DNA of 64,000 nucleotides from Deltaproteobacteria bacterium (GTDB taxonomy: Bacteria; Desulfobacterota; Syntrophia; Syntrophales; Smithellaceae): the NCBI GenBank assembly GCA_022710585.1, contig JAKLGV010000009.1, positions 1 to 64,000 of the forward strand, given 5' to 3'. Below, piece after piece: positions 14,524-52,767 of this stretch; within the stretch, counting starts at the first letter, position 1, and every line of letters begins with the position of its first letter. The notes under the pieces are model-generated. The model saw only the letters and a list, made by a program, of their open reading frames with translations, did not search any database and was not told the DNA's origin. The position numbers and the translations under genes are program-made.

Positions 14524-14683
14524 AATTATTGCCTTCCTTTAATTTGGATTTATTGTTCTGGAAAGTTTGCAGAATAAAACAAATATTATAAATATTGTCA
14601 AGTTAATTGTTGTTCCGGCCTTTCATGAACAGCCCGGCGGTCAGTGATTTGTATGTCATGAAATCTCAGAGTATTCCAATTGG

Positions 14684-16021
14684 TTAAGGTTCCATGATCT
14701 CTCGATATATTTTCCATTCATGACCTGTTTTCTTCAGGTTCAGAGTCTTCTTTCCTTTGCTTTTCAGAACGGACGAACTGTAATGCTGAATAAATGTGGC
14801 GGTTGCGTTTTCTCCGTTGGCGGATATCTTCAAATCATCAATACTGATTTTGATTTTTTTACTTTTCTGGCGCACGTTTGATTTATGAGCTATCCATGCG
14901 TCCAGATCCATTTCCCTTGATTTAAAATCATGGGTGTAACAATTGCGGTATGCTGTCACATTGCCTGATTCCCAACTGGTCGCCCATTTTTTTATGACGC
15001 TCTGAATGTCCTTATGGATGTTGACGACAGGTGTTTTGACTTCTTTTTGTTTGTGTTCCGCCAGGGCCAGAGCCTGATCGGATGATGTGACATCGTCGAC
15101 AATCAACCACCCATCCTTCACTTTTTCTAAAATTAATTTATTATAAAAACCCTGGAATGTGTTGTTGCCGGCGACGGAGAAAATCTGATCAAAAATAATA
15201 ACCGCATTATTGCCTTCCTGAAGAATGGAGATATCCCGAGGCTCCAGAACGAAATGTTTGTTGATAAAATCCAAATTCCTGATTTTCTCGTTGAGCTCTT
15301 CTCTTCTTTTGCCCTTGATTTCCGTTCCCTGTCTGTACAGAGAATCCATTTTCCGGAGATCCTTTTCAATAAAGGCCTTATTCCAGGCTGTTAATATATT
15401 TTCCAGATCTTTTTTTGCAGGTGACGCTTGATGTTGGGGTACCCAGTTGATGGATTCGGAAATGATCACTGGGGTTCTGTTCAAAAAGATGAATTCGGCA
15501 AGCCGTTTGAGATCGTTGTCTCGCAGAACGACACAGCCCTGTGATTGTTTGGGCAGCAGCGATGCGGTTGTGCCGTGAATCCAGATGTTGCTGCCGTCGC
15601 GCCCCGCTCTCTTGTCGGCAAGCGTGGGGTAATCCAGCGGGAAGGCCATTGATCCGTAAACATCAGGCGGACCGGGATTGCGAAGGATTCTGGTCGTGAA
15701 AAAGACTCCATTGGGTGTTTTCTTGTCACCGGCGATTTGCTTGGAACCGGAGTTCTGGCCGGTGGAACAGGGCGCTTCAAACACTTTGGAAAAATGATCG
15801 GACTTTTGGAAGACATAAATTTTCTGGAACTTTTTGTCGACGACCATGACGTAGCCGGAAGAAAGCGCGACGATCGAATCGGGGATGAGGGCGGTCTTGG
15901 CTGAATCTGCTGAGTGGGATGATTCGGGAGCTTCAGGAACCGAATAAGAAATCTTAATCAGAAAAAAAACAACAATCAGAGCAAGAGGAATATAATAGTA
16001 AATATTTTTTTTGATATTCAT
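14684..16021 (-). CDS. L,D-transpeptidase (YkuD) with two NTF2-like domains
   Basis: Membrane-anchored periplasmic L,D-transpeptidase that would cross-link peptidoglycan or attach proteins to it. A single hydrophobic segment (YYYIPLALIVVFFLI) follows a short basic N-terminus. The YkuD domain has the catalytic HGTT (His about 149) and SQGCVVLRDND (Cys about 163). Two SnoaL/NTF2-like domains follow; the last (KKWATSWESGNVTAYRNCY, ending KIYREIM) matches the tail of the TPR protein. The start is uncertain: TTG at 16063 and GTG at 16057 are in frame upstream, none with a good ribosome site. Confidence 0.9.
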   Translation of the reverse strand: MNIKKNIYYYIPLALIVVFFLIKISYSVPEAPESSHSADSAKTALIPDSIVALSSGYVMVVDKKFQKIYVFQKSDHFSKVFEAPCSTGQNSGSKQIAGDKKTPNGVFFTTRILRNPGPPDVYGSMAFPLDYPTLADKRAGRDGSNIWIHGTTASLLPKQSQGCVVLRDNDLKRLAEFIFLNRTPVIISESINWVPQHQASPAKKDLENILTAWNKAFIEKDLRKMDSLYRQGTEIKGKRREELNEKIRNLDFINKHFVLEPRDISILQEGNNAVIIFDQIFSVAGNNTFQGFYNKLILEKVKDGWLIVDDVTSSDQALALAEHKQKEVKTPVVNIHKDIQSVIKKWATSWESGNVTAYRNCYTHDFKSREMDLDAWIAHKSNVRQKSKKIKISIDDLKISANGENATATFIQHYSSSVLKSKGKKTLNLKKTGHEWKIYREIMEP

Positions 16022-16084
16022 AAGCCGTATAAGATCAATTTTTTTAATGGTCTTCACTAACAAAAAATCTGTGATGATTCAAGA

Positions 16085-18128: not shown

Positions 18129-18133
18129 AGGCC

Positions 18134-18667
18134 ATGAAAAAGCTTAATCTTAATATTAACCCCAAAAGTTTTATCTATATCGTCATTTACGGCGCCGTGA
18201 TCCTGGGCATTATTTTATTGGGTATGCTGCCGCTTTACCTGAAGACTGTCAACCGGGTGCAGGAAAATGATAAATTAAAAGCTCAGATCAAAGAACAAAA
18301 AGAACTGGCCCCTGTTTATGCCACAGTCCTCAACGCCGGCAAGGAAAAAACATTATTGGTGCTGTCCCATCCCGAAAAAAAAGCATTGGCCCGTTCCGAG
18401 TCCGGAAAATTCCAGTCCGATTTTCAGATGATCGCTCAAAAATCAGGCATTAAAGTGGTTTCATTGACGCCCGATGTGAATACATCGGCCGCCCCTTCAA
18501 CATCTTTTTTACATCATGCGGTTCTGAACGGGGAGTGGAATGATTTGCGAAAACTGCTGATAGAATTGGGAGGACTTCCGTATCTGGATAAAATTGAAGA
18601 AGTCGTAATGCAGCAGGGTACCGGATTCATGGAATTTAGAATGAAGATTTGGATAGCGCTCAAATAG
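18134..18667 (+). CDS. mshJ: MshJ-like pilus alignment protein (PilO type)
   Basis: 177 residues with an N-terminal membrane helix (about 12-34, FIYIVIYGAVILGIILLGML), then a short coiled coil and a periplasmic ferredoxin-like domain. This matches the PilO/GspM architecture. It would pair with MshI in the inner membrane. Starts six bases after mshI. Sequence similarity in this family is low, so the call rests on architecture and position. Confidence 0.75.
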   Translation: MKKLNLNINPKSFIYIVIYGAVILGIILLGMLPLYLKTVNRVQENDKLKAQIKEQKELAPVYATVLNAGKEKTLLVLSHPEKKALARSESGKFQSDFQMIAQKSGIKVVSLTPDVNTSAAPSTSFLHHAVLNGEWNDLRKLLIELGGLPYLDKIEEVVMQQGTGFMEFRMKIWIALK

Positions 18668-18680
18668 GCGATAAAAAATT

Positions 18681-19175
18681 ATGGCGAACTTAAAGAAAAG
18701 AGAGATAATCATTCTGGCACTGGCGGGATTAGCCGTGCTGTACGGTGTTTATGAATATTTCCTCGCGGATCGTCTGTTCGGTAAAAAAGTTCCAATAAGT
18801 ACTGAATCCCAAACAACCGCAACCTTAACCGGCTCCATCGCTGATGAACTGAACAAAAATAAATTATCCGATTCTGAGAATTATATTATTAAACAGGCCG
18901 GAGTGGACTGGGGAAGCAATCCTTTCTTAAACAAAGATTTGTACCGGGCCTGGATCTCCAAAGATATCGCGGCCGCCGCCAATGCTTTGAAACTTAATTA
19001 TTCCGGCTATGTCGATTCCGGCAAAAGAAGAATGGCGATTATCAACAATGTGGAATACCGCGTTGATGAAGAGCTGATAGAAGAGGGCTATGTCGTCAAA
19101 CAGATTACGCCTTCCAAGGTAGTCATTTTAGATAAACGATCGGGAAATACTGTAGAAATTCCCATTCAGGAATAA
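18681..19175 (+). CDS. mshK: MshK-like pilus biogenesis protein (PilP/GspB-like)
   Basis: 164 residues. A membrane helix (about 8-24, IIILALAGLAVLYGVYE) is followed by a linker and a small C-terminal beta domain (LNYSGYVDSGKRRMAIIN, then VVKQITPSKVVILDKRSGN). That domain resembles the PilP/GspC HR domain that docks onto the secretin. The position between MshJ and the secretin supports the role. Confidence 0.72.
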   Translation: MANLKKREIIILALAGLAVLYGVYEYFLADRLFGKKVPISTESQTTATLTGSIADELNKNKLSDSENYIIKQAGVDWGSNPFLNKDLYRAWISKDIAAAANALKLNYSGYVDSGKRRMAIINNVEYRVDEELIEEGYVVKQITPSKVVILDKRSGNTVEIPIQE

Positions 19176-19199
19176 AATTTGTAACTGGAGGATATCGCC

Positions 19200-20744
19200 T
19201 TGAAATACTCTATAGTCCATAAAAAAAATACAAGGGCCGTTTTTTGTTTTCTTGCGCTGATTTGTTTTGTGGGATGCGCTCAAGGACTCAAAAACGAGAA
19301 GAAAGATGCTTTTTTTGATAAGTGGACAACACTCGCGGAAAATTCTCAAGGCCATTCTCCGTCCGCGCAATCGAAAGCCATTGATATGTCGGTGTTAAAC
19401 AAGAAAAAAATTACAACATCTCCCTTGGGTGAAACAAATGACAGTAAACTGCCTCACGGGCCCATTACGCTGACGATGCGTCAGGCTGATTTAAAATCCG
19501 TTTTACGGGCAATGGCCAAGTCCGTTGGCGTCAACCTTCTGGTCAAAAACGAACTGAAGGGTGAAATCAGTGTCGATTTTCGAGGGGTTGCCTGGGATAA
19601 GGCCTTTACCGGCTTGCTGCGCACCTACGGTTTGTCTTATATCTGGGAAGATAACATCATCCGGGTGATGACCGTCGAGGATGTGGATCAGGAATTAAAA
19701 CGGAAGGTTCAACTGCGCGACATTCAATGGGTGGAGCCGCTCTTGGAACCTGTTGTTATAAAAATTGATTATGCCGATGCCAATAAATTGGCGGAGATGA
19801 TTAAAGATCTTTTAACGAAAGATAAGGACGGAAAACCGAGAGGTACTGTGAAAGTTGATGACCATACGAATTCTCTGATTCTTTCTGCTATGCGCGATGA
19901 TCTGACCAAAATATTGCCGATTATTGAAAAACTGGACAAGCCGACATCTCAAATTCTCATAAAAGCTAATATCATTGAAACAAGCAAAGGTGTAGCCCGT
20001 GATCTGGGAATTATGTGGGGTGGCTATAGGAACGCCACACAAGGTAATAATGATCTGATTATTAGAAGCGGCGGCACCCGCGCGACATCCGATGGCGATC
20101 TTAATCCAACCGGTAATGCGATTGGAATAGGGGGGAAAGGTCTGGGTGTGGTTTTCCCGGCAAAAAATATCTCAGATGCCGCGGCAGCATCTTTGGGGTT
20201 GGTTTTTGGAAAAATAGATGGGAATTTTCTGGAAGTTCAGTTGCAGGCCCTGCAGAATGACAATAAATTGAACATCTTGTCCAGTCCTTCCATAACGACA
20301 TTGGATAACCAGAAAGCATTTACAGAAAATGGAGAGAAGGTTCCCTATGTGACAACGGAAACAAGCGGTGGCACAACAACTCAAACGACCAAATTTGAAG
20401 ACGTTGTACTGCGTCTGGAAATAACACCGCATGTAATAGATGGTAAAAATTTAAAGATGACTATTTTAGTGAAAAAAGATGAAGTAGATATGTCCAGAAA
20501 ATCCGCAATTGGCGATCCCTATATTGTTAAGAAACAAACTCAAACAGAATTAATTGTTAAAGACGGTGAGACGATTGTTATTTCGGGATTGACCAAGCAA
20601 ACGAACTCGATTGGGCAAAGTGGTGTGCCGTGGCTGAAGGATATTCCTTTTCTGGGATGGGCTTTCAAGCTGGATAGCAAGAGCGACAGTATGGAAGAAG
20701 TGCTGATATTTATCACGCCGCACATTTTGCCAATAGGAAGTTAG
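19200..20744 (+). CDS. mshL: Secretin lipoprotein, MshL/PilQ-like
   Basis: 514-residue outer-membrane secretin through which the pilus exits. A lipoprotein signal ends with Cys26 (lipobox-like FVGC). A STN/N0 domain is near 80-145 (ITLTMRQADLKSVLRAM), with one N1-type domain near 165-250. The secretin barrel follows (IEKLDKPTSQILIKANIIE; QLQALQNDNKLNILSSPSI; EVLIFITPHI). TTG start; CTGGAGG at 19185-19191 is the ribosome site. The large insertion near 270-320 is Gly/Asn-rich. Confidence 0.92.
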   Translation: MKYSIVHKKNTRAVFCFLALICFVGCAQGLKNEKKDAFFDKWTTLAENSQGHSPSAQSKAIDMSVLNKKKITTSPLGETNDSKLPHGPITLTMRQADLKSVLRAMAKSVGVNLLVKNELKGEISVDFRGVAWDKAFTGLLRTYGLSYIWEDNIIRVMTVEDVDQELKRKVQLRDIQWVEPLLEPVVIKIDYADANKLAEMIKDLLTKDKDGKPRGTVKVDDHTNSLILSAMRDDLTKILPIIEKLDKPTSQILIKANIIETSKGVARDLGIMWGGYRNATQGNNDLIIRSGGTRATSDGDLNPTGNAIGIGGKGLGVVFPAKNISDAAAASLGLVFGKIDGNFLEVQLQALQNDNKLNILSSPSITTLDNQKAFTENGEKVPYVTTETSGGTTTQTTKFEDVVLRLEITPHVIDGKNLKMTILVKKDEVDMSRKSAIGDPYIVKKQTQTELIVKDGETIVISGLTKQTNSIGQSGVPWLKDIPFLGWAFKLDSKSDSMEEVLIFITPHILPIGS

Positions 20745-20867
20745 TGCGGGCGTTCGAAAATATCAAAAAAAATAAAAGCGCTTTAAAGCTAAGATTTCCG
20801 GAATAAGAAACCAAACTTAAACTGACTCCGAGAATAAAAATGTCAAAGAGCAAGATGGCATTTAGAA

Positions 20868-22424
20868 ATGAATTATTACAGCCTTCTCAATTTTAAAAAG
20901 GAGCCATTCTCGAATTCACCGGAACCGGAATTTCTTTTTCAACTGCCCCAATACAGCGATTGTCTGCAGAAACTGGAACTGGCCGTACGTCTCCGCCGGG
21001 GGCTGAATGTTGTCATCGGAGACATCGGAACGGGCAAAACAACTTTATGCCGCAAGCTCATCCAGAATTTTTCTTCAACTTCACCGGATTCCACCCACAT
21101 CGAAACCCATCTTTTGCTTGATCCCGCCTTCAACAGTCCTCTGGATTTTCTCCAGACGGTTACGTTTATGCTGGGTATCAAAGATCCGGATGACGACGAT
21201 AAAGGCGAATGGCACTTAAAAGAAAAAATCAAGGATTACCTTTTCCGGAAAGGCGTGGATGAAAAAAGAATTGTTGTCCTGATTATTGATGAAGGACAGA
21301 AAATCTCCGAGCAGTGTCTGGAAATATTGCGTGAATTCCTGAACTACGAAACCAATACATTTAAGCTGCTGCAGATCATCATTTTTGCTCAACAGGAATT
21401 TCAATCAACGCTTGACAAAAAGGCCAATCTGCTGGATCGGGTCAACCTTCTCTATCATCTTCAGCCGTTGAGCTTCAGCCAGATGCGGGAGATGATCAAT
21501 TATCGTTTAAACGTCGCCAGGAATTTTGAAAATGTGTCACCGGTATTTAGCACTCCGGGTTTTCTCGCCCTGTATCTGCACACCGGCGGCTATCCAAGAA
21601 AAGCGGTTTTTCTTTGCCACCAGGTGATCTTGAAAATGATTATCCGGGGGAAGGAGAGGGCCGGATGGTTTCTGGTCAGAAGTTGTTTAACCGAAAAGGA
21701 AGCGCCTCTGTTCAGAAAATTAACGTGGACGCTGGCTGGCATCCTGTTGATTCTTATTGGTGGATTGGCGGTCAGCTCCATCGCGCTCAACCGGATCAGC
21801 AAAGACGCCGATCAGCAAAAAACTGTAGCACTGGCCAAACCGTCTGCCGTTCCCGTTTCTCAGATTCCAGTCATGAATCATGCGTCCAATGTTCCTGTCG
21901 GCAGCACCGGCGGCGTTCACGATTTGAAAATGCCCGATCATATCGGCACAATATCCATGACCCCTAAAAGAACAATCTGGTGGACACTTTATAATATTTA
22001 TGGCGACAATACGAATCCGGAAATCATTAAGAAATTTTTTGCAGCCAATCTCCATTTAAAAAATAAGGATTACGTGACCGTGGGAACGACAGTCACGCTT
22101 CCGGCCATTCCCGCCGACACCAGTCCTGTCAAGGCGGGCGATGTCATTGTCGTTTTAGACAGTGGACAAGATCTGGAAAAAATGTATAATGTTTTTCGCA
22201 ATCATCCCGACTCGCAAATTCTGCCTGCATTGGCCTTTCTGGCCTCCTGGAATAAAAACAGGGGATTTGGATTTGCCGTGGTAATCGATAAATGTTTCAG
22301 CAATATGCGTTCCGCCGAAGAAGCAAGGCGGGCGCTCCCTTCCGGGATTGCGGGCAGGGCGACGATTCTATCGCATTGGGATGATGAAACAGTTTTTTTC
22401 AGCCGCCGGACATTGCCGAATTGA
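20868..22424 (+). CDS. mshM: MshM-like AAA ATPase with LysM-like and SPOR-like tail
   Basis: 518 residues. The N-terminal ExeA/GspA-type ATPase has Walker A GDIGTGKT (51-58) and Walker B VVLIIDE (136-142). A membrane helix lies near 287-307. The periplasmic part has a LysM-like segment (IWWTLYNIYGDNTN to VGTTVTLPAI) and a C-terminal SPOR-like segment. In ExeA/GspA systems such ATPases with a peptidoglycan-binding tail help insert the secretin through the wall. 123 bases separate it from mshL. Confidence 0.85.
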   Translation: MNYYSLLNFKKEPFSNSPEPEFLFQLPQYSDCLQKLELAVRLRRGLNVVIGDIGTGKTTLCRKLIQNFSSTSPDSTHIETHLLLDPAFNSPLDFLQTVTFMLGIKDPDDDDKGEWHLKEKIKDYLFRKGVDEKRIVVLIIDEGQKISEQCLEILREFLNYETNTFKLLQIIIFAQQEFQSTLDKKANLLDRVNLLYHLQPLSFSQMREMINYRLNVARNFENVSPVFSTPGFLALYLHTGGYPRKAVFLCHQVILKMIIRGKERAGWFLVRSCLTEKEAPLFRKLTWTLAGILLILIGGLAVSSIALNRISKDADQQKTVALAKPSAVPVSQIPVMNHASNVPVGSTGGVHDLKMPDHIGTISMTPKRTIWWTLYNIYGDNTNPEIIKKFFAANLHLKNKDYVTVGTTVTLPAIPADTSPVKAGDVIVVLDSGQDLEKMYNVFRNHPDSQILPALAFLASWNKNRGFGFAVVIDKCFSNMRSAEEARRALPSGIAGRATILSHWDDETVFFSRRTLPN

Positions 22425-22441
22425 GTTGAAGTGGAGGATCG

Positions 22442-24145
22442 ATGAAACAAAAAAAACGCCTGGGTGAAATACTGGTGAACGAGGGTATTTTAACCGAGGA
22501 AACGCTGGACAAACTTTTAATTGAACAAAAGAAAACAAATTTGAAATTGGGGCAGCATTTAATACGCCAGGGTATTGTTAATGAAGCTCAGATCATTTCT
22601 TTATTGAGCAAGCAGTTGAACTTAAAAAAATACCATGTTCAGGACTATCCGCTGGATCTGGAAATCGTGCGCTATATCCCCATTGATGTCGTCCAGAAAT
22701 ATCAGATCGTTCCCTTAAGAATCAAAGGCAAGCTACTGGAGGTTGGTATTGCCGATCCTTTGGCGGTTAAGTCACTCGATTATATTGAAAAACTGACCAA
22801 TCTGGAAGTTGAGCCGGTAATTTGTTCCGAGATGGAGATCAATCAGCTCATTAACAGCTTGTATGGAGCGCAGTCGGAACTGGGCGATTTAATGGATAAC
22901 ATGGAAATAGAATCCAAATCGGAAGAGGAGGCGGAGACGCCGGATTCTATCCATATCACATCGACTCAGGATCAGGCTGGTGAAGCGCTGGTGATGCGCC
23001 TGACGAATTCTATTTTCGCTCAGGCCGTTCGCAATAAAGCCAGCGATATTCATGTCAGCCCCCGGCAAAACAACGTGCAGCTACGTTTCCGTATAGACGG
23101 CCGGCTGATTGAGATGCCTTCGCCTCCGAAGGCCATATTTCTGTCCGTGATTGCCCGCATTAAGATCATCGCCAATATGGATATTACCGTTTCCAGGGTT
23201 CCTCAGGACGGCCGGTTTACGCTGAAAACAGAAAACAAGGAGATCAACGTCCGAGTATCGTCCATACCAACCATATACGGCGAAAATATTGTCATGCGTT
23301 TGTTGGATATGAGCGCCGGCATTTATACGCTGGACCATTTGGGGATGGACGCGGATGATATGGCTAAAATTGAGACTATGAGCAACAAACCTTACGGCAT
23401 GATTTTAAGCACCGGTCCGACCGGCAGTGGCAAAAGCACCAGTCTTTATTCGATCTTGAATGCCATCAATCAGCCGGATATCAATATCATCACGCTGGAA
23501 GATCCCGTGGAATACAGAATAAATGATATTCGTCAGGTCCAGTTAAATACCAAAGCGGGTATGACCTTTGCCAGCGGGTTGCGCTCCATTCTTCGTCAGG
23601 ATCCCGACGTCATTATGGTCGGTGAAATCCGGGATGCGGAAACAGCGGCGATATCGGTTCAGGCGGCGCAAACCGGGCATCGGGTCTTGAGCACCGTGCA
23701 TACCAATGATGCCGCCGGTGTGATTACGCGATTTATTGATATGGGGATTGAGCCTTTTCTCATTGCTTCGGTTTTGATGGTATCATTTGCCCAGAGATTG
23801 TTGCGCCGGGTTTGTCCCTATTGCAAAGAGTCTTATCGTCCCCCGATGAAGGCTCTGAACGCTTTTGGAATTACGGCGGAGGAAGCGCAAAACGCCGATT
23901 TTCAGCGCGGCAAGGGGTGTACGCAATGCAACAATACGGGCTATAAAGGAAGAACCGGTGTTTTTGAGGTGCTGGCGGTTGACGAAATGGTGCAGGATAT
24001 GATCGTCAGTCAAAGGCCCAGCCCCGAAATTACAAGAGCCGCGGTCGCCGCTGGAAAATTAAAAACGCTGCAGAAAGACGCGGCGCAAAAAGTTATGCGG
24101 GGAATTACATCGCTTGAAGAAGCTGTGACAGTCATTATGTCTTAA
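22442..24145 (+). CDS. mshE: Pilus extension ATPase, MshE/PilB type
   Basis: 567-residue GspE/PilB-family motor. The N-terminus has the tandem MshEN pattern: RLGEILVNEG (6-15) and KLGQHLIRQG (35-44). In Vibrio MshE this module binds cyclic di-GMP, so second-messenger control is inferred. The ATPase core has Walker A GPTGSGKS (about 325-332) and Walker B MVGEIRDAETA (about 395). Tetracysteine zinc motifs are CPYC (about 458) and CTQC (about 493). GGAGG just before the ATG. Confidence 0.95.
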   Translation: MKQKKRLGEILVNEGILTEETLDKLLIEQKKTNLKLGQHLIRQGIVNEAQIISLLSKQLNLKKYHVQDYPLDLEIVRYIPIDVVQKYQIVPLRIKGKLLEVGIADPLAVKSLDYIEKLTNLEVEPVICSEMEINQLINSLYGAQSELGDLMDNMEIESKSEEEAETPDSIHITSTQDQAGEALVMRLTNSIFAQAVRNKASDIHVSPRQNNVQLRFRIDGRLIEMPSPPKAIFLSVIARIKIIANMDITVSRVPQDGRFTLKTENKEINVRVSSIPTIYGENIVMRLLDMSAGIYTLDHLGMDADDMAKIETMSNKPYGMILSTGPTGSGKSTSLYSILNAINQPDINIITLEDPVEYRINDIRQVQLNTKAGMTFASGLRSILRQDPDVIMVGEIRDAETAAISVQAAQTGHRVLSTVHTNDAAGVITRFIDMGIEPFLIASVLMVSFAQRLLRRVCPYCKESYRPPMKALNAFGITAEEAQNADFQRGKGCTQCNNTGYKGRTGVFEVLAVDEMVQDMIVSQRPSPEITRAAVAAGKLKTLQKDAAQKVMRGITSLEEAVTVIMS

Positions 24146-24160
24146 GTCAAAGGATAGAAT

Positions 24161-25381
24161 ATGCCCAAATCAAATTATGCTTATAAGGCCATTAATCAGC
24201 AGGGAGAAAATGTTTCCGGAAAAATTGAGGCGGAATCCATTGAAAATGCCAATTTGATACTGGCTGCACGGGAACTGATGCCCTTACAGATTAAAGAAGA
24301 GCAATCAGGGGAAATGAATTGGCTGAAGAATTTGATGGGCTCCGGCGGCATCAAAATTACTGATCTGGTCATGTTTACCAAGCAATTTCATTCGATGCTG
24401 GTTGCCGGTATACCGATCTTGAGGATTTTGGCAATTATCGAAGGCCAGACAGAAAATGCTGCCTTAAAGAACGCAACATCAAATGTTGTCAAGGATATCA
24501 ACCAAGGTTCGTCACTTTCAGATGCCCTGCAGAAATTCCCCAAAATATTTGACCCGCTTTACTGTGACATGGTCAGAGCTGGCGAAACCAGTGGAAATCT
24601 GCCCAGCGTTCTGGAACGATTGATTTATATTATTGAACACGAGGCAAAAATCAAGGAGGATATTAAATCGGCGTTAAGATATCCCATTATGGTTCTTATT
24701 GCTCTGGTCGCGGCTTTTGTACTTCTTCTGACGTTCGTCATTCCGACATTTGCCAAAGTTTTTATTGGTGCCGGCATAGACTTGCCCTGGCCGACCAAGG
24801 TGGCGATGATGTTATACGATTTTATTCATAATTACTGGTATTTCATTGTCGGAGCAATGGTTGCAGTCACTGTCAGTCTCTATTACTACTTTAAAACAAG
24901 TAACGGACGATTTGTCCGGGATTCATTCATGCTGGAAATTCCCATCTTAGGGCCGCTTTTTAAGAAATCTGCGCTGTCACGGTTTGCCAGCATCTTTGCA
25001 ATTCTGCAGTCCAGCGGAATTCCGATTATGCAGTCCCTGACAGTTCTTTCCGCAACGATGGGCAATGAAGCGCTGACCCGTTCTTTTGATAATGTTCGCG
25101 AGCGCATTAAAGAGGGTGCCGGGATCGCGACGCCTTTAAAATCCGTAAAATATTTTACTCCCATGGTCATCGACATGATCGCGATTGGTGAGGAATCAGG
25201 CAAAATTGACGAAATGATGCGCGCGGTCGCAACTCACTATGACAGCGAAGTAGAATACGCGGTGAAAGGTCTTTCGGATTCTCTGACGCCGATCCTCATT
25301 GTCGGACTGGCCGCGATTGTCGGCTTTTTTGCCATGGCCATATTTTTGCCGATGTGGGATCTTACAAAGATAGTCAAATAA
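24161..25381 (+). CDS. mshG: Pilus inner-membrane platform protein, MshG/PilC type
   Basis: 406-residue GspF/PilC-family protein with the usual N-terminal YAYKAINQQGENVSGKIEAE and two cytoplasmic GspF domains (about 65-190 and 270-395). Membrane segments lie near 170-195, 215-240 and 375-400. It anchors the extension ATPase and the growing pilus. Both GspF repeats carry the AGETSGNLP / IGEESGKIDEM signature. Follows mshE by 15 bases. Confidence 0.94.
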   Translation: MPKSNYAYKAINQQGENVSGKIEAESIENANLILAARELMPLQIKEEQSGEMNWLKNLMGSGGIKITDLVMFTKQFHSMLVAGIPILRILAIIEGQTENAALKNATSNVVKDINQGSSLSDALQKFPKIFDPLYCDMVRAGETSGNLPSVLERLIYIIEHEAKIKEDIKSALRYPIMVLIALVAAFVLLLTFVIPTFAKVFIGAGIDLPWPTKVAMMLYDFIHNYWYFIVGAMVAVTVSLYYYFKTSNGRFVRDSFMLEIPILGPLFKKSALSRFASIFAILQSSGIPIMQSLTVLSATMGNEALTRSFDNVRERIKEGAGIATPLKSVKYFTPMVIDMIAIGEESGKIDEMMRAVATHYDSEVEYAVKGLSDSLTPILIVGLAAIVGFFAMAIFLPMWDLTKIVK

Positions 25382-26991: not shown

Positions 26992-27366
26992 ATGTTAAGA
27001 AATCAGAAAGGTTTTACGTTAATTGAAATCATTGCGGTTCTTGTTATTTTGGGTATATTGGCGGCAGTAGCGATACCCAAGTATATGGATCTGCAAGTTC
27101 AGGCTAACCAAAAAGCATTACAAGGTGCAGCAGCGGAAGGATTATCAACGCTGTCAATGCAGTTTGGGAGACTCGCTCTGTCCACTGGTGGAGTGCCGAC
27201 TGTTTCTGATATCGTGACTGCAGCAAACAATAGTAAACCACAATCAAATGATTTTACTTATACTTTTGTTGCAGGTGCGGGTAGTTCTATCGACGTAACT
27301 GTAAATTGGACGGCTGGTGGAAAAAGTGGCGTCGATCCGGTTTCGAAAAATTGGTTGAGGCCATGA
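26992..27366 (+). CDS. mshA: Type IV major pilin, MshA-like
   Basis: 124-residue type IVa prepilin. A short basic leader MLRNQKG precedes cleavage before Phe8; FTLIEIIAVLVILGILAAVA follows with Glu at +5. The C-terminal half is Ser/Gly/Asn-rich and short (mature protein about 117 residues), without the usual disulfide-loop cysteines. AAGGAG precedes the start. Own sigma-54 promoter and strong terminator mark it as a separately and highly expressed gene, consistent with the major subunit. Confidence 0.93.
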   Translation: MLRNQKGFTLIEIIAVLVILGILAAVAIPKYMDLQVQANQKALQGAAAEGLSTLSMQFGRLALSTGGVPTVSDIVTAANNSKPQSNDFTYTFVAGAGSSIDVTVNWTAGGKSGVDPVSKNWLRP

Positions 27367-44262: not shown

Positions 44263-44310
44263 TGCTTGAAAATATTAACTGTTATAAAAAAGATCCTAAA
44301 AAAGGTATCC

Positions 44311-44865
44311 GTGGATCAAAAAACCGAAGCTGAAATCGTTATCAGGGTTTTAAAGGGAGACAGGCAGGCGTACGCGCTGCTTGTCGACGAATACAAAAAT
44401 CCCATTTACAATTTGGCTTACCGGATGACCAATAATTTGCACGATGCCGAAGACCTGGCGCAGGAAACCTTTATCCGCGCCTATCAGAACCTCTCCCGAT
44501 ATGACCAGAACAGAATATTCTTCACCTGGCTTTATACCATCGGCATCAATCTCATCCGCAACCATTTGAAAAAAAATGACCGGCGTAGCGAGCCCTTGAC
44601 GGATGCGCATATCGCGTCCGCCTCCCGGGCGCGGGAAAAACAAACCACAGAAGAAAATATTCCGGCCGAAGAAAAAATGCTGCAACTTGAAAAATCGCTG
44701 CAAAAACTGCCTGTCGATTTGCGCGAAGCAATCGTTTTGAAATATTATCAGGGGCTTACCTTTGAAGAAGTATCCGTCATCACGGGCGATTCGCAAAGCG
44801 CTGTGAAGATGCGCGTTTATCGGGGTTTGGAGAAATTAAAGAAAATGCTGGAATATGTTGAATAG
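44311..44865 (+). CDS. ECF-type RNA polymerase sigma factor
   Basis: About 184 residues from the GTG at 44311, which has AAAGG six bases upstream; an open TTG at 44266 lies inside the repeat and is less likely. Region 2 (about 20-90) has NLAYRMTNNLHDAEDLAQETFIRAY in two parts; region 4 (about 125-180) has LPVDLREAIVLKYYQGLTFEEV and an HTH. Sigma-E type. Its usual anti-sigma partner would follow immediately, but a repeat-protein gene and a broken copy of this gene's 3' end intervene before an anti-sigma-like gene at 47.4 kb. Confidence 0.92.
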   Translation: MDQKTEAEIVIRVLKGDRQAYALLVDEYKNPIYNLAYRMTNNLHDAEDLAQETFIRAYQNLSRYDQNRIFFTWLYTIGINLIRNHLKKNDRRSEPLTDAHIASASRAREKQTTEENIPAEEKMLQLEKSLQKLPVDLREAIVLKYYQGLTFEEVSVITGDSQSAVKMRVYRGLEKLKKMLEYVE

Positions 44866-44903: not shown

Positions 44904-44953
44904 AGTACATCAACCATAAAGAATGCTCAATAACAATGAAGGAGGAATCCCTT

Positions 44954-47131
44954 ATGAAAAAGTTTATAACTATAATCGTGACATTGCTTTGTATTTTGCT
45001 TCATGTCGAAATACTTTTTGCAGGGTCAGGTGATTTTAATGCCGATTCCATCACAGATATTCTCTGGCGAAATACATCCACCGGCCAGGTGAACCTCTGG
45101 TTTATGAATGCTGACGGAACCAGAAGCAGTTCCAAGACTCTTCTTACGGATATCAGTTGGACTGTTGCAGAAACAGGCGATGTAAACAATAATGGTATAG
45201 CCGATATATTCTGGCGACAGGCCTCCACCGGAAAAGTGAATTTATGGTTTATGAATGTCGATGGAAGCAGGGCAAGCGCCAGAACGTTGATTACCGATCC
45301 CAGTTGGACGGTTGCGGGAACCGGTGATTTCAACGCTGACGGAAAAAGTGATGTTCTCTGGCGACAGGCGTCCACCGGCAAAGTAACTTTGTGGTTTCTG
45401 AATGCCGATGGAAGCAGAGCCAGTGCTAAAACGCTTATTACGGACGCAAGCTGGACAGTAGCGGGGACCTGTAAATTCAACACGGATGCCATAACCGATA
45501 TTCTCTGGCGACAGGCGTCCACCGGCAAAGTGACTTTATGGTTGATGAACGCTGATGGCACAAGAGCAAGCGCCAGGACGCTGATTACCGATGCCAGTTG
45601 GACGGTAGCGGGAACGGGTTATTTTAATTCTGACAATGTATCGGATATTCTTTGGCGACAAGCGTCCACCGGCAAAGTGACTTTATGGTTGATGAACGCT
45701 GATGGCACAAGAGCAAGCGCCAAGACGTTGATTACCGATGCCAGTTGGACGGTAGCGGGCACCGGCAATATCAACGCCGATTCCATAACCGATATTTTCT
45801 GGCGGCAGGCGTCCACCGGCAAAGTGACTTTATGGTTTATGAAAAATGACGGCACAAGGTTAAGCTATAAAACACTCATGACCGATATGAATCAGACCAT
45901 AGTACCTTTACCATTACCATCCTCGACTCCCGCCTCCGGCAGTCTGGACACGACGTTTGGCGGAGACGGCATTGTCACCACAGCATTAGGCAGCGGGAAT
46001 GAACAAGCCAATGCTGTTGCCATCCAGACAGATGGCAAAATTGTCGTAGCGGGCTATTCCAGTAATGGCAGCAACAATGATTTTGCTGTGGTAAGGTATA
46101 ATACAGACGGCAGTCCGGACGCAACTTTTGGTGGAGGTGACGGCATCGTCACGACTCCGGTTGGCAGCAGTGATGATTATGCCACTGCCATTGGCATCCA
46201 GTCAGACGGCAACATTGTTGTGGCGGGATATTCATGGAATGGCAGTGATTATGATTTTGCCGTAGTGAGATACAATACAGTTGGCAATCTGGATACAACA
46301 TTTGATTCAGATGGCAAGGTAACCACACCGGTTGGCATTGGAGATGACCAGGCCAACGCCGTGGCCATTCAATCAGATGGCAAGATTGTGGTGGCGGGAT
46401 ATTCATGGAATGGCAGCGATTATGATTTTGCCGTAGTGAGATACAATACAGGCGGCAGTCTGGATACAACATTTGATTCAGATGGCAAGATAATCACACC
46501 GATCGGGAGCGGTGATGATCAAGCTTATGCGATGGTCATTCAATCTGACGGAAAGATTATAGTAGCGGGACAGTCAAGTAATGGCAGTGACAACGATTTT
46601 GCTGCAGCTAGGTATAATACGGATGGCAATCTTGATACAACCTTTGGCGGAAACGACGGCATAGTCGTCACATCGTTGGGTGGGGATGATTATGCGCGTG
46701 CAGTTGCTGTTCAGCCTGATAACAAGATCGTGGTCGGGGGATGCAGCGATTATGATTTTGCGTTAATTAGATATGACTCAGGTGGCAATTTGGATACAAC
46801 CTTTGGGGGTGGGGACGGTATTGTGATCACACCCATTGGCAGTGGGATAGACATTGCCGCTGCGCTCACTATCCAACAAGGGAATATAGTAATGGCAGGT
46901 GTTTCTCAGAATGTTAGCAATTTTGATTTTGCATTGGTTAGATACAATATAGATGGCATTATTGATACAACTTTTGGTGGAGTTGATGGTAAAGTAATGA
47001 CACCAATTGGGAGCGGTTGGGATGTGGCCTATGACATTACCATTCAGCCTGCCGACGGCAGAATAGTGGTAGTAGGATATTTCAACAATGGCAGCAACGA
47101 TGATTTTGCCCTTGTAAGGTATTGGCCGTAA
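44954..47131 (+). CDS. Exported FG-GAP/VCBS and delta-60 repeat protein
   Basis: About 725 residues. Signal peptide ends near LFAGS. Six 49-residue FG-GAP/VCBS-like units follow (about 25-320), each containing DILWRQASTGKVxLWxMNADGTR; the DNA repeats with an exact period of 147 bases. Then seven delta-60-type units (about 335-720) of the form LDTTFGGxDGIVxTPxGSG plus DGKIVVAGYSxNGSDxDFAVVRYN. Both parts should form beta-propeller-like blades outside the cell. AAGGAGG lies between an ATG at 44936 and the ATG at 44954, so the latter is chosen. Function is unknown. Confidence 0.9.
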   Translation: MKKFITIIVTLLCILLHVEILFAGSGDFNADSITDILWRNTSTGQVNLWFMNADGTRSSSKTLLTDISWTVAETGDVNNNGIADIFWRQASTGKVNLWFMNVDGSRASARTLITDPSWTVAGTGDFNADGKSDVLWRQASTGKVTLWFLNADGSRASAKTLITDASWTVAGTCKFNTDAITDILWRQASTGKVTLWLMNADGTRASARTLITDASWTVAGTGYFNSDNVSDILWRQASTGKVTLWLMNADGTRASAKTLITDASWTVAGTGNINADSITDIFWRQASTGKVTLWFMKNDGTRLSYKTLMTDMNQTIVPLPLPSSTPASGSLDTTFGGDGIVTTALGSGNEQANAVAIQTDGKIVVAGYSSNGSNNDFAVVRYNTDGSPDATFGGGDGIVTTPVGSSDDYATAIGIQSDGNIVVAGYSWNGSDYDFAVVRYNTVGNLDTTFDSDGKVTTPVGIGDDQANAVAIQSDGKIVVAGYSWNGSDYDFAVVRYNTGGSLDTTFDSDGKIITPIGSGDDQAYAMVIQSDGKIIVAGQSSNGSDNDFAAARYNTDGNLDTTFGGNDGIVVTSLGGDDYARAVAVQPDNKIVVGGCSDYDFALIRYDSGGNLDTTFGGGDGIVITPIGSGIDIAAALTIQQGNIVMAGVSQNVSNFDFALVRYNIDGIIDTTFGGVDGKVMTPIGSGWDVAYDITIQPADGRIVVVGYFNNGSNDDFALVRYWP
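45056..45871 (+). repeat. 147-bp tandem coding repeats
   Basis: Six coding units start at about 45056, 45203, 45350, 45497, 45644 and 45791, exactly 147 bases apart. Units three to six are near-identical over the stretch encoding RQASTGKVTLW, which indicates recent expansion or gene conversion. Confidence 0.85.
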
Positions 47132-47416: not shown

Positions 47417-48019
47417 ATGTTTGGAAAACAGGATGAAAACTGGTCTCAATTCAGTGATCTAATCGAAATCATTGAAAATTCCGGACAAAAACAGGCGCCG
47501 GAAAATTTTACACCCCATATCATGGCTAGGATTTCTGAAGTAAAAGAAACCGATAAGTCATTATCATTGAGGAATTCATTTGCTACAAAATTTGATTTTG
47601 GATTTAACGCAGCCGTGACCCGCGCGGAATGCGCTTTCTACTTTTTAATTACAGGTTTTTTCTATTTTGTTCTCGGTCTCATTATGATGATCGGCCTTCC
47701 ACTTCCGATCATTATGCAAAACAATGAATGGTTATCTTTTCAGCCTGTCTTTGGTCTTTTACTTGCCGCGGAACTTACACTCCTCGGTATTATAATATAC
47801 AAAAAAGGCGATTCAGCAGTACTGTTCGCTCGTTTGGGGACTGTTTTATACGCGGCTTTGATCATTCTTAATTGTTGGATAGGTGCCTTTTATATTCAAC
47901 CTGCCACAGCTTTATTATTTATAGGGGTTTTTTCTATGACCGGCTTAGTCCTGGCTGTTTTGTTGGGATTAGCGGTTGCGCATTACGATACGGAGAATAT
48001 TTGTTCGGAGGTTAACTGA
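47417..48019 (+). CDS. Anti-sigma-factor-like membrane protein
   Basis: 200 residues. The N-terminus (1-45: FSDLIEIIENSGQKQ, then PENFTPHIMARISEVKE) has the P-x-x-F-x-x-x-I-M-x-x-I pattern common at the start of anti-sigma factor membrane proteins. Four membrane helices follow (about 72-96, 108-127, 135-155 and 160-188). No zinc-binding HxxxCxxC is seen. The position behind sigma-factor sequence supports the call. Its stop overlaps the following prepilin start (TGATG), coupling sigma control to the minor pilins. Confidence 0.65.
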   Translation: MFGKQDENWSQFSDLIEIIENSGQKQAPENFTPHIMARISEVKETDKSLSLRNSFATKFDFGFNAAVTRAECAFYFLITGFFYFVLGLIMMIGLPLPIIMQNNEWLSFQPVFGLLLAAELTLLGIIIYKKGDSAVLFARLGTVLYAALIILNCWIGAFYIQPATALLFIGVFSMTGLVLAVLLGLAVAHYDTENICSEVN

Positions 48020-48486
48020 TGCATCATGTTCTCGGGAAGTTAAAAAATAAACACGGTTTTACAATGATTGAAATCATTTGTATTCTAGTGATCGTAGGTA
48101 TTATTGGAGTCTTTGCGATCACGCGAATGACCAGCACGCAAGATATTGATCTTGCCTCGCAGATTGAAGTTGTTAAGACGCATCTGCGTCAGGCACAAGC
48201 GCGAGCGATGAGTTCCGGCAGACCATGGGGCATCTTTTTTCATAGCAATAAAAAAAGATATTACCTGTTTGACGATGCAGCTAATACAACGAAGGTTTTG
48301 CTTTTAGGTGAAAAAAACGCAGAGGTCGACCTTCAACAAGACAAGAACTCTGCATTGCGCATCGACCCGCCCAGCGGTAACAGGGTGACCTTTAATGCCT
48401 ACGGCAGTCCCGGCACAGCAAATATTGTTCTGACGACGAATGGCGGCAATATTACCATAACAAAGAATACAGGATTTATTCCCTGA
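48019..48486 (+). CDS. Minor prepilin, MshC/GspH-like
   Basis: 155 residues. Leader of 13 ends NKHG; then FTMIEIICILVIVGIIGVFA with Glu at +5. The body has the GspH-type QARAMSSGRPWGIFFHSNKKRYYLF. GGAGG precedes the ATG. It is translationally coupled to the anti-sigma-like gene. It probably forms part of the pilus tip or priming complex. Confidence 0.88.
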   Translation: MHHVLGKLKNKHGFTMIEIICILVIVGIIGVFAITRMTSTQDIDLASQIEVVKTHLRQAQARAMSSGRPWGIFFHSNKKRYYLFDDAANTTKVLLLGEKNAEVDLQQDKNSALRIDPPSGNRVTFNAYGSPGTANIVLTTNGGNITITKNTGFIP

Positions 48487-48506: not shown

Positions 48507-48950
48507 ATGCGATCTAGACAAAAATATCAAACACGAAGCGACCGGGGCTTCACGTTGATAGAGGTTATTGTTTCACTTATTGTGGCAGGTATCCTCGGTG
48601 CCATGCTTGTAGCCTTTATGGGATCCCAAATGATGCATAGCGGGGATCCGGTGATTCTCGCGAAAAACGGGGCTTATCTCAATCAGATTATGGAAAAAAT
48701 GGTAGCCGACTATACACGTCTGCAAATTACAAGTCCGGGACCTGCCGGCCTGCAAACATTTGAAGGAAGAGTTAAAACAGCAAATCTATATGGCAGCGGC
48801 TATACCGCAACAGCTACCTATGTTTCGATTCCCGCTACTGGCGCCAATGTCACTGTCTCAAGTTCTTCTTATAATGCCAATGCCAATAACAATCTTCAGG
48901 TTAGTGTTACTTACAAGGGTCTGACAGTGACCGAAATTTTTGGGGGCTAA
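48507..48950 (+). CDS. Minor prepilin, MshD/PilV-like
   Basis: 147 residues. Leader ends SDRG; then FTLIEVIVSLIVAGILGAML. The C-terminus is Ser/Asn/Thr-rich (GANVTVSSSSYNANANNN). AGGAGGA precedes the ATG. It sits between two other prepilin genes and ends five bases before the next start. Confidence 0.87.
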   Translation: MRSRQKYQTRSDRGFTLIEVIVSLIVAGILGAMLVAFMGSQMMHSGDPVILAKNGAYLNQIMEKMVADYTRLQITSPGPAGLQTFEGRVKTANLYGSGYTATATYVSIPATGANVTVSSSSYNANANNNLQVSVTYKGLTVTEIFGG

Positions 48951-48954
48951 AACT

Positions 48955-51900
48955 ATGTTGATGAAAAGATTTTCAGAGATCGGTAAGAGAAAAGTCATCG
49001 AATCAAAAAAAGGTTTTACGCTGATAGAAGTTATCGCCGTGCTGCTGATTGTTGGTGTAATGGCAGCGCTGGGCGGAATGGGTATCGTTCAGGCGGTTAA
49101 AGGATATCTTGCAGTCAAAGAAAACGCAGCGATAACCCAAAAAGCGCAATTGGCCATGTCACGGATCACACGGGAAATCCAGGAAATGATTAGTATGGAA
49201 TCCGGCACTGCCGGAGGAGATAGTGAGGTTCTGCGCATAGTTGGTACAGCCAACTGCCTGACTGATGACAACTGCGTTCGGAGATTGGGGCGTCCCGCTT
49301 CCTCTAATCCCATTAATGTTCGAAATACGGTAAAAATTGTTTTCGGTTCCAATCCTATAAGAGACGGGGATACTCTGATAGACAACGTCACCAATTTTCA
49401 GTTTACCTATTACAGCGGCAATGTGAGCAGTACTTCATGGGCGCCCGGGAATGATGTAAATCTCACAGGTATTGGTGTTAACATGACTGTTAACAGGTCT
49501 GATGGTAAGGCAATCAGTTTCCAGAGCCTTATCGATCCTCGAAACAATGGGAATATGGGGGGTGCAAATGTCCCCTCGGCGGTGCCCCCCGGCACACCGG
49601 CACAGTGGAATGTTAATTGCTTTGTAGCTACCGCCGCTTATGGTGATGCAACACATCCCATGGTACAGATATTACGGGATTTTCGGGACAGAGAACTGAT
49701 TCACTGGCCGGGCGGGAAGGCCTTTATTCATTTGTACTATCAAAACGGCCCGAAGGTGGCCGATATGATTCGCAACCATCCGGCGGCCATGTGGGCTGTT
49801 CGATGTCTGCTGGCACCCATTGTTTACTTTGCCTTTTGCTTGATGTACGCGCCGATGGCAATTCCTTTTATGTTTTTAGTGTCTGTCTTTATTACATTGG
49901 CAGTGTTTTCAGTTTACCGTCGGAAAACCGTTCTCAGTGCCGCTATTGTACGATCACGGGGTAGTATCCTGATTGCCCTAATCATCACGATGGTTGTTAT
50001 GGCTTTGCTGGCGGCGGCCATGCTTCCTATGTTTTCCTCTTCTTATATGAATCAGTTCCATGCCGACCAGGGCCGCAAAGCTTATTTTCTCGCGGAATCC
50101 GGTTACCGATACGCGGCCGGCCGTTTTCTCTGGGCCGGCACTGATCCAGCGCGAGATGCTGTCATACTGGACTTGAACGGCGCAGCGAACGCGGGGAAAA
50201 TCGTCAATCTGCTCAACAATGCCGGCTCATTCAGGACACAGATACAGCCCTTCTGGTTCAATGTGAATTCATTCACCGCAGGTTCCAATAGTCTTGTTAC
50301 AAATGCCCTGGGCAAGATTCCCACGGAGTTTAACAGTAGTTGCAGCGGAGGTACACCTTCTTCGCCTTGCGGATATCTTAAAGTGGGAGACGGCAATACC
50401 TATTCATACAATGTCCGCACTGTCGCCTCAAATGGCATTACTTTCGGCGGTCTTTACAGTTCCTCATCGTCAACTATTTCATCCGGCCAGACAGTTTTGC
50501 CTGTGGCGCAAACTTCCAATGCCACTGCCACGCAGACCCTCACGAATAAAGGAAAACTGAATTTGAGTTCTTACGGTGCCGAACAGTTTCCGGAGTATAA
50601 CGGTATTTTTACTTTTGATTTTATGCCGGGAACAACATTTAACTACATATACCGAAAGGGCACAGTACTTTATAATATTACTCTTGGTGACAAGTCCAGG
50701 CCGTGGTCTAACGTGATTGTGCCTTCAAATACTAAATTGATTCTTGAAAAGTTCCTACGCATCACCTCAACCGGTACAACGAAAGGCGGGGCTACCCGTC
50801 AGGTGAGTTATGACACATCGCTTACATGGCTTTCGGGAGCAGGCGGAAAAGTGCCTGTGGAGGATCAAATTGGCGAAAAAGAATCCGATTTAATCTTTCC
50901 GCCAAATACCGTTACCGTTACTAATACGATTAATGTCGCACAGATGAAGGACATACCTGCACTTAGCTCATTATTTCCGGGCTTTGTGGGATGGATACTG
51001 AGTATTGTCGAAGCCATATTTGGATTTTTCGATCTAGTGCATGATTGGGTATTTAGCGATTGCGACAGTTTTAATCCTGCGTTAAACTTTATTGCAGCCA
51101 ATCCAACCCAATTGACTTATGACCCTGCCCAGGCATGGGTGGATGGCCAGGGTTTCCTGTCCTACGACATTCAGGTGAAAGTTGAAGCAGAGGGTCAAAA
51201 ACACTTCTTTGCCGGGCCGACCTTCCGGGGAAGAAATGACGCGTCGGGGCGATTTGCTTCGTACGGTGTTTCTTTTGCCAGGGCAAAACGTTATTCACAC
51301 CCGGGTGATTTAGGAGGCTGTACTGCCTGCTACGCAGTTGACCAATTCGGTCCCTTGTTTGGCCCGGTGGAAGATACACCACTATGGCGATATGGTCCGA
51401 TCGGTTCATGTCCTGTTGCTCCTTCTGCCGGCTTGGAGAAGGAAGGTGACCCCGACGTGTGTAGTGCCGGTCCGGACCGTCCTGAATTTGAATATAGCCT
51501 GCCTGCAATCATCCTCTGGAAAATTGTTGGGGGCAAACCGCAGATGATTGCTTACCGGATTCTATCTGCGGCCGACGGCATCGTTTCTTACGACTCTTCC
51601 ACGAATGCATGGCGACTGAATCCGAATTATTCCACGCTGATGGTTCGCGTTGCCGAGGGATACGCCATAACTTTTAATAATGGCACTTCAGAGATTAAAA
51701 AGAATGATATCATCACCAATGCAGGCAATACCAGAAGAGCCCAGGTTGTGGCGGCGATTCTGGACAGCGGATCCTGGGCCGATGGTAACGCCGCCGGTAC
51801 CCTGGTTGTTAGTAATGTTCGCAATGGATCCGGCACATTCAGCGGGGCGATTAATAAAGGCGGCACGCAGGTGGCCAATGCTACCAACTTTGATCAGAAC

Positions 51901-52767
51901 AAGAGAAATTACATCAGTGCTTATTTCAGCCATCCGGGACCGGCTGACCAGGGCACACCCAATAACGTGGTAACAGACAACAACAGACATGCCAATCAAA
52001 TTGGCCAGCATAACTGGCCGCCTGATAATCCGTCCGATCTTGCCGCCGGCAATGATTACTTTACGCTGGTCCAATGGGCAGGAACGGCAAATGATACAAA
52101 AGCTGATACCGTATTCTATTCAGATTGTTCATCAGGTTGGTCATTTGAGAAAAAGCATAGTTTCTTTGGCATTCCCTATAGCAACTGGAGTCACATATTG
52201 GGTAATATGTTTGTTGCCGCAGGAAACCTTGAAGAATTTGCCACATCCCCAACCTTTACGGTTAACGCCGGCGTGACCTATGAAGTGGATGTTGTTCTTG
52301 GCCTTGCCTCTCTAGATGCCGGGATGCATGTTTATTTCGGGTGCCAGCGAGCTTACATTCCCTTGCAGCACGGCATGGCTGCCAAACATTTTAAGGTACA
52401 ATTCAGGCCGACTGTTGCAGATCTTGGTGGTACCAGCAAAGACATTTCAATTCGATTCCGTCCGGATGAACCGACCAGTGCCACCATTTATTCTGTTACA
52501 GTAACCCCCTTTATTAATGGTGCGTTAGGGTCACAGAAAGCCGTCATCAGGGATTCAGATCTAACAAGTCCAAGTCCAAATACCTGCCTAACGAATACTT
52601 CGTTTACCTGCGGGGCGTCAGATTTTGAATTCGGCATCAATAATGCCGGTGATACATTCGGCCTGCTGACCATCGGTGAGACTGGGAAGTACATTTCCTA
52701 TGATGACTGGTGGATTAGAATGGATTTAAAAAAGGGGACTTCGTTATACCCGCCCATTCAGCATTAA
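48955..52767 (+). CDS. Fused minor prepilin, CFI-box/CTERM-like region and PilX/MshQ-like protein
   Basis: About 1270 residues in one uninterrupted frame. Part one (1-220) is a PilW/MshO-like prepilin: leader to Gly20, FTLIEVIAVLLIVGVMAALG. Part two (about 222-325) begins CFVATAAYGDATHP and ends in hydrophobic segments and YRRKT, the layout of a CFI-box C-terminal sorting region. Part three (about 333 on) begins RSRGSILIALIITMVVMALL and FLAESGYRYAAGR, as PilX-like proteins do, then a large beta-rich MshQ-like body. The ATG at 48955 has GGGGG upstream. It looks like two genes joined by loss of a stop; proteolytic processing could separate them. Confidence 0.85.
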   Translation: MLMKRFSEIGKRKVIESKKGFTLIEVIAVLLIVGVMAALGGMGIVQAVKGYLAVKENAAITQKAQLAMSRITREIQEMISMESGTAGGDSEVLRIVGTANCLTDDNCVRRLGRPASSNPINVRNTVKIVFGSNPIRDGDTLIDNVTNFQFTYYSGNVSSTSWAPGNDVNLTGIGVNMTVNRSDGKAISFQSLIDPRNNGNMGGANVPSAVPPGTPAQWNVNCFVATAAYGDATHPMVQILRDFRDRELIHWPGGKAFIHLYYQNGPKVADMIRNHPAAMWAVRCLLAPIVYFAFCLMYAPMAIPFMFLVSVFITLAVFSVYRRKTVLSAAIVRSRGSILIALIITMVVMALLAAAMLPMFSSSYMNQFHADQGRKAYFLAESGYRYAAGRFLWAGTDPARDAVILDLNGAANAGKIVNLLNNAGSFRTQIQPFWFNVNSFTAGSNSLVTNALGKIPTEFNSSCSGGTPSSPCGYLKVGDGNTYSYNVRTVASNGITFGGLYSSSSSTISSGQTVLPVAQTSNATATQTLTNKGKLNLSSYGAEQFPEYNGIFTFDFMPGTTFNYIYRKGTVLYNITLGDKSRPWSNVIVPSNTKLILEKFLRITSTGTTKGGATRQVSYDTSLTWLSGAGGKVPVEDQIGEKESDLIFPPNTVTVTNTINVAQMKDIPALSSLFPGFVGWILSIVEAIFGFFDLVHDWVFSDCDSFNPALNFIAANPTQLTYDPAQAWVDGQGFLSYDIQVKVEAEGQKHFFAGPTFRGRNDASGRFASYGVSFARAKRYSHPGDLGGCTACYAVDQFGPLFGPVEDTPLWRYGPIGSCPVAPSAGLEKEGDPDVCSAGPDRPEFEYSLPAIILWKIVGGKPQMIAYRILSAADGIVSYDSSTNAWRLNPNYSTLMVRVAEGYAITFNNGTSEIKKNDIITNAGNTRRAQVVAAILDSGSWADGNAAGTLVVSNVRNGSGTFSGAINKGGTQVANATNFDQNKRNYISAYFSHPGPADQGTPNNVVTDNNRHANQIGQHNWPPDNPSDLAAGNDYFTLVQWAGTANDTKADTVFYSDCSSGWSFEKKHSFFGIPYSNWSHILGNMFVAAGNLEEFATSPTFTVNAGVTYEVDVVLGLASLDAGMHVYFGCQRAYIPLQHGMAAKHFKVQFRPTVADLGGTSKDISIRFRPDEPTSATIYSVTVTPFINGALGSQKAVIRDSDLTSPSPNTCLTNTSFTCGASDFEFGINNAGDTFGLLTIGETGKYISYDDWWIRMDLKKGTSLYPPIQH

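Follow-up and report, generated by a model that had tools for sequence, protein, structure and literature searches.

A conserved reading frame joins two prepilin-like proteins through an internal CFI-box CTERM segment: a candidate two-pilin polyprotein

The locus described here lies in a window of 64,000 nucleotides (the whole stretch of DNA that was analysed, from contig JAKLGV010000009.1 of a member of the Smithellaceae), in which positions 48955-52767 form one uninterrupted frame of 1270 residues, opening with ATG at 48955, or possibly with an in-frame TTG at 48940, and closing with a stop codon at 52767. The frame joins a PilW/GspJ-like prepilin, a CFI-box CTERM domain and a second prepilin-like protein; a sequence-only reading of the same DNA had named these parts correctly, including the class III leader at the N-terminus and the identity of the CFI box. 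The prepilin N-terminal motif is found above cut-off at residues 18-40 (TIGR02532, E = 3.8e-6; PF07963, E = 4.6e-5), and all the features of a class III prepilin are present there, namely a basic leader, Gly at −1, Phe at +1, Glu at +5 and a hydrophobic helix (KKG/FTLIEV, the slash marking a predicted cut between G20 and F21). The CTERM domain matches NF041770 over positions 1-69 of 69 (E = 2.7e-22; 78.3 bits against a cut-off of 40), and the same model is matched by 13 of 13 aligned fusions. It is not C-terminal, as 980 residues follow the 69-residue domain. Past it, a second pilin-like N-terminus, SILIALIITMVVMALL, begins at S337 directly after the loop RRKTVLSAAIVRSRG, so that a basic loop, Gly at −1 and a hydrophobic helix recur at a predicted second site (RSRG/SILIALIITMVV). 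The coordinates of these and of neighbouring features are collected in Table 1.

The family models for PilW/GspJ remain below cut-off on the fused protein (T2SSJ PF11612, E = 0.061; gspJ TIGR01711, E = 0.057). An AlphaFold2 model of residues 18-640, built with 13 sequences and having a predicted local distance difference test score (pLDDT) of 67, resembles the EpsJ pseudopilin (3cfi chain B and 2ret chain H; probability 0.97-0.99, E = 0.006-0.016). The second pilin has about 930 residues (934 after the loop), including a long beta-rich C-terminal part, and the ComGE minor-pilin model matches weakly at residues 335-381. The model of residues 640-1269 is also beta-rich (pLDDT 61) and weakly resembles CBM35/CBM6 sugar-binding folds; a fold search with the C-terminal part returned nothing below E = 0.001, the CBM-like matches being weak.

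Table 1. Features of the fused pilin locus and its surroundings in the window.
Feature	Coordinates	Strand	Basis
Fused frame: PilW/GspJ-like prepilin, CFI-box CTERM, second prepilin (PilX/GspK position)	48955-52767	+	35 fused homologues
First class III prepilin leader, residues 1-20	48955-49014	+	KKG/FTLIE; TIGR02532, PF07963
PilW/GspJ-like pilin domain, residues 21-205	49015-49569	+	EpsJ-like AlphaFold2 model
CFI-box CTERM core, residues 222-290, from Cys222 (CFVATAAYG)	49618-49824	+	NF041770, full length
Predicted membrane segment, residues ~302-321	49858-49917	+	Hydrophobicity scan; one segment at this place in short-linker fusions
Basic loop RRKTVLSAAIVRSRG, residues 322-336, presumably cytoplasmic, ending in Gly336	49918-49962	+	Predicted second prepilin-peptidase site G336/S337
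Second pilin-like protein (PilX/GspK position), residues 337-1270	49963-52764	+	Homologous to separate downstream pilin genes, 36 split loci
Upstream prepilin 1, GspH/FimU-like, first gene of minor-pilin run	48019-48486	+	GspH PF12019, E = 3.1e-7; N_methyl PF07963
Upstream prepilin 2, GspI/PilV-like	48507-48950	+	N_methyl, 8.6e-8; TIGR02523 pilV, 8e-4, below cut-off
Pilus assembly machinery: PilM/MshI-like, secretin, ExeA/MshM-like ATPase, PilB/MshE, PilC/MshG	16260-25381	+	
Probable major pilin, 124 residues, GFTLIEIIAVLVILGILAAVAIPK	26992-27366	+	Sequence

The internal, CTERM-joined fusion of two pilins is a genuine, conserved and unusual arrangement. Among 60 related genomes, 12 further loci were found with the entire fusion in one open frame of 1100-1380 codons, and when the search was widened to 155 genomes of the order, 395 genomes of the phylum and named genome contigs, the number of distinct fused loci, once duplicates were removed, rose to 35 in all; their hosts are Smithella, Syntrophaceae, Desulfobacteraceae, Desulfosarcinaceae and other Deltaproteobacteria. 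The ratio of nonsynonymous to synonymous substitution rates (dN/dS), calculated in eight pairs, ranges from 0.13 to 0.31 in the first pilin, 0.06 to 0.28 in the CFI core and 0.10 to 0.23 in the second pilin, indicating that all three are under purifying selection. The membrane-and-loop stretch is looser (0.21-1.18), as would be expected if hydrophobicity and charge outweigh exact residues.

These observations bear on two explanations that require no polyprotein. According to the first, a stop codon was lost by accident, or the assembly is in error, in a single genome, both of which had been raised from the sequence. In the one split relative with a CFI-tagged PilW the two genes overlap by ATGA, and a single frame change would fuse them; the recurrence of the open frame in 35 distinct loci from independent assemblies, the low dN/dS and the near-constant linker length nevertheless make this explanation extremely improbable, and we reject it. 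According to the second, two proteins arise not by cleavage but from an internal translation start. In-frame TTG and GTG codons do occur in the window downstream of the CFI core and ahead of the second pilin, but no such start is conserved, and three fused loci (L007, L008 and L013) have no ATG, GTG or TTG from the close of the last membrane segment up to the hydrophobic helix of the second pilin; we regard an internal start as very improbable and have likewise discarded it. The open frame in all 35 loci, the low dN/dS and the lack of a conserved internal start make it likely that one product is translated from it.

The junction between the two pilins was studied by scanning for hydrophobic segments with a loosened anchor and segment rule. 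The order Cys-Phe-Val/Ile, hydrophobic segment and net-positive loop (K+R > D+E) is found in 35 of 35 fusions, none of which lacks a hydrophobic segment at this point. In 34 of 35 the position directly ahead of the second hydrophobic helix is occupied by Gly, as is the corresponding position in separate second-pilin genes; the other positions of the loop vary freely. As the anchor used in gauging loop variability required Gly or Asn, the Gly count was taken from separate junction scans. In the CFI form the linker from Cys to Gly measures 109-117 residues (115-117 in all except one). Six fusions (L097, L098, L135, L140, L152 and L155) have a short linker, with either a reduced CFI core or other sequence in place of it (for example, CFVTTAGFE in L097 and CFVAIAGFE in L098), and each of them retains the Cys motif, one hydrophobic segment and the basic loop. 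The full CFI form has an additional hydrophobic stretch inside the core. Several CFI-box proteins (L184, L185, L166, L153 and L172) end 76-81 residues past the Cys, with neither membrane helix nor basic tail; the CFI core may thus be a domain in its own right, and that some CFI proteins end right after the hydrophobic stretch inside the core suggests that this stretch need not span the membrane.

Elsewhere the CFI box behaves as a terminal tag, as the sequence-only reading had held for sorting regions of this type: of 51 other CFI frames that close with a real stop codon, 48 do so no more than 121 residues after the Cys, and in a second count, mostly of long open reading frames and including a few of the 51, 20 of 20 end within 126 residues. 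In the fused frame the CFI domain would become C-terminal only after a cut at G336.

Prepilins have their N-terminus in the cytoplasm and their body in the periplasm, and prepilin peptidase works on the cytoplasmic side of the membrane. Two prepilins in one chain therefore require the chain to re-cross the membrane once. We consider it moderately probable that the frame encodes a two-pilin polyprotein, in which the CTERM segment turns the chain back and prepilin peptidase cuts at both sites to yield two pilins 1:1. The steps that we infer are these. The signal of the first pilin would insert the chain so that its N-terminus stays on the cytoplasmic side and the PilW/GspJ-like domain lies in the periplasm; the CTERM segment, consisting of Cys motif, CFI core, one membrane helix and basic loop, would return the chain to the cytoplasm; and the second prepilin signal would insert in the same orientation as the first, so that the large PilX/GspK-like domain also comes to lie in the periplasm. 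Cuts by prepilin peptidase would follow at G20/F21 and at G336/S337. The latter cut would free the second pilin, and the first would now truly end in the CTERM tag, which could serve there as an ordinary sorting or processing tag, perhaps processed at the invariant Cys. The outcome would be two neighbouring subunits of the pilus tip made in a 1:1 ratio. The near-constancy of the internal Gly within an otherwise variable loop suggests a prepilin-peptidase cut at G336/S337, and since the first pilin would end in a proper tag after this cut, the CTERM segment could work as it does elsewhere.

The sequence-only reading had offered, besides a lost stop codon, a cleavable linker, which is the better of the two options, the cut itself being predicted; it had also considered a fused tip protein with two pilin anchors. 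In such a protein the chain would stay whole: its two pilin helices would run parallel, the linker helix antiparallel to them, and PilW and PilX would be held together in the pilus tip. The conserved fused frame agrees with this arrangement, and as GspJ and GspK adjoin at the tip of type II secretion pseudopili, a permanent link is conceivable. The subunit would nevertheless have to pull an extra membrane helix and a charged cytoplasmic loop out of the membrane, and an internal Gly kept in nearly every fusion amid variable neighbours would be needless if no cut were made there; the uncut form is in our judgement unlikely, and the Gly and the topology favour two cut pilins.

It may also be supposed that only the CTERM Cys is processed, a sortase-like enzyme cutting near Cys222 to release the first pilin while the tag stays behind as membrane leader of the second. 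This would leave the conserved internal prepilin site without a reason, and it calls for an enzyme acting on CFI tags, of which none is known to us; an Rce1-like protease, tried as a candidate for that enzyme, was not found in the genome (95% complete). In its favour, Cys-Phe-Val/Ile is the one motif of the linker present in every fusion, even in those without a CFI core, and cleavage of MYXO-CTERM proteins needs their Cys (PMC11980579). We judge processing at the Cys alone to be quite improbable.

Several points weigh against a polyprotein cut at both sites, starting with the want of a tag enzyme just mentioned. The second prepilin site has no Glu at +5, being Ala here and Gly, Thr, Ser or similar in relatives and in separate genes. 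Neither the PilX_N nor the GspK family model matches the fused protein or any of the 13 aligned fusions; we call the second half 'PilX' by position and features only. One fusion, L130, lacks the internal Gly. No prepilin peptidase is known to us that acts behind a leader the size of an entire folded protein; both cuts are predicted from sequence. Finally, AlphaFold2 places two hydrophobic helices in the CFI region with low confidence (pLDDT about 50). Should both of these cross the membrane, the case for the proposed topology would no longer hold for the full-length form; it would still hold for the linkers with a single segment, which in our view are the clearer evidence on topology.

Separate genes in relatives, which the sequence-only reading had proposed to look for, do exist. 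Two adjacent genes, neither with a CFI domain, encode the pilins at 36 loci; in one genome (L086/L136) PilW ends in a C-terminal CFI tag followed by GHFKRRSP, and the gene for the second pilin, directly downstream, starts at an ATGA overlap. In a tree of both pilin domains from 60 loci, the CTERM-bearing loci (the 35 fused and the split-CFI) do not form one clade, and a single origin is rejected (approximately unbiased test, p = 4e-7); the starred branches of the tree force at least four changes of state. Fused and split states have thus interchanged repeatedly, and as the tree is unrooted it does not distinguish fusion from fission as the direction of these changes. Two split loci carry apparent linker remnants: in L090 PilW ends in CFITTVSHGW, and in L137 the second pilin has a hydrophobic leader; both look like products of the fission of a former fusion. 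In an independent-pairs test 4 of the 4 informative pairs agree (p = 0.125), a small result that is partly built in, since short linkers were scored as CTERM. A tree of the CFI domain alone is poorly resolved; the fused CFI boxes cluster in it, without a demonstrated single clade.

Three CFI frames outside the pilin fusions are also non-terminal. In two of them, L169:2407-4233 and L188:3327-6332, the sequence past an internal CFI tag reads, by eye, as a basic stretch, then an apparent Sec signal peptide and finally a beta-barrel-like protein; these are possibly a second kind of CTERM-linked polyprotein. No second export signal was seen in the third, L150. We put forward tentatively, as a prospect somewhat short of even, that CTERM tags can act as internal membrane-reversing linkers in polyproteins that combine two proteins exported separately, with the pilin fusions as the widespread kind and L169 and L188 as the second.

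Upstream of the fusion lie two further prepilin genes (Table 1). A prepilin at the position of the first is present upstream of most fused loci, and in 34 of 35 the GspI/PilV-like prepilin is conserved as well, at a distance of about 0.4-0.6 kb. The resulting succession of H-like, I-like and J-like genes and second pilin is a minor-pseudopilin operon order, as known from the H, I, J, K-type genes of type II secretion. We infer from proximity that the assembly machinery at 16260-25381 serves the fused pilin, and the probable major pilin presumably belongs to the same pilus. The best NCBIfam match of the ExeA/MshM-like ATPase is a PEP-CTERM-associated ATPase, below cut-off. No prepilin peptidase was seen in this cluster; the genome encodes one Peptidase_A24 match, on another contig (G000:C41; L190:3989-11206), where it stands in a second, conventional minor-pilin set with FimT-like and PilV-like prepilins and a PilY1-like frame of 1366 codons. 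Elsewhere in the window, a gene for a sigma-70-family factor (44266-44865) precedes that of a 731-residue protein (44936-47131) with tryptophan-rich FG-GAP-like and then delta-60 repeats (TIGR02608, E = 2e-115), and adjacent tetratricopeptide repeat and L,D-transpeptidase-like genes on the minus strand (13075-16063) resemble each other in their C-terminal domain (IQSVIKKWATSWESGNVTAYRNCY), as though by duplication.

CTERM-type tags are defined by their position at the end of a protein, and here one is found mid-chain in dozens of genomes. The features retained when the CFI core is lost, that is the Cys motif, one membrane segment, the basic loop and the Gly, hint at what the tag does, namely reverse the chain and offer it for processing. 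If cut as proposed, the product would be a pilin polyprotein and a means of fixing the ratio of two subunits of the pilus tip; the invariant Cys-Phe-Val/Ile is in turn a concrete lead toward an enzyme acting on CFI tags. In the open-licence literature we found no description of an internal CTERM tag joining two prepilins, no report of a pilin polyprotein and no paper on CFI tags; the component parts are of known kinds, and it is their arrangement that was not found described.

These results can be set against the systems they most resemble. The tag of the MYXO-CTERM/myxosortase system is a C-terminal tripartite element with a Cys motif, a membrane helix and a basic cytoplasmic end (PMC11980579). 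The linker has the same layout, and the short linker of L152 is weakly alike in sequence (TIGR03901, E = 0.009, below cut-off); the differences are that the MYXO-CTERM tag is C-terminal and that no Rce1-like protease was found in this genome. As in the mannose-sensitive haemagglutinin (MSHA)-type pilus (PMC6668835), genes for a secretin, an ExeA/MshM-like ATPase and MshE-like and MshG-like proteins are clustered, with no prepilin peptidase seen in the locus; unlike it, the window has a secretin that falls below the cut-off for MshL (TIGR02519, 102 bits against 250) and above that for PilQ (TIGR02515, 322 against 284), and its minor pilins lie about 22 kb away. With the C-terminally tagged CFI_box_CTERM proteins of the same genome the fused frame shares a full-length domain match followed by a hydrophobic segment and basic residues, but there the tag is terminal whereas here 934 residues follow the loop. 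With the GspJ/PilW and GspK/PilX minor pilins it shares the order after GspH-like and GspI-like genes, an EpsJ-like first domain and a class III start; it differs from them in that the two pilins form one chain, of which the second has some 930 residues and a beta-rich tail.

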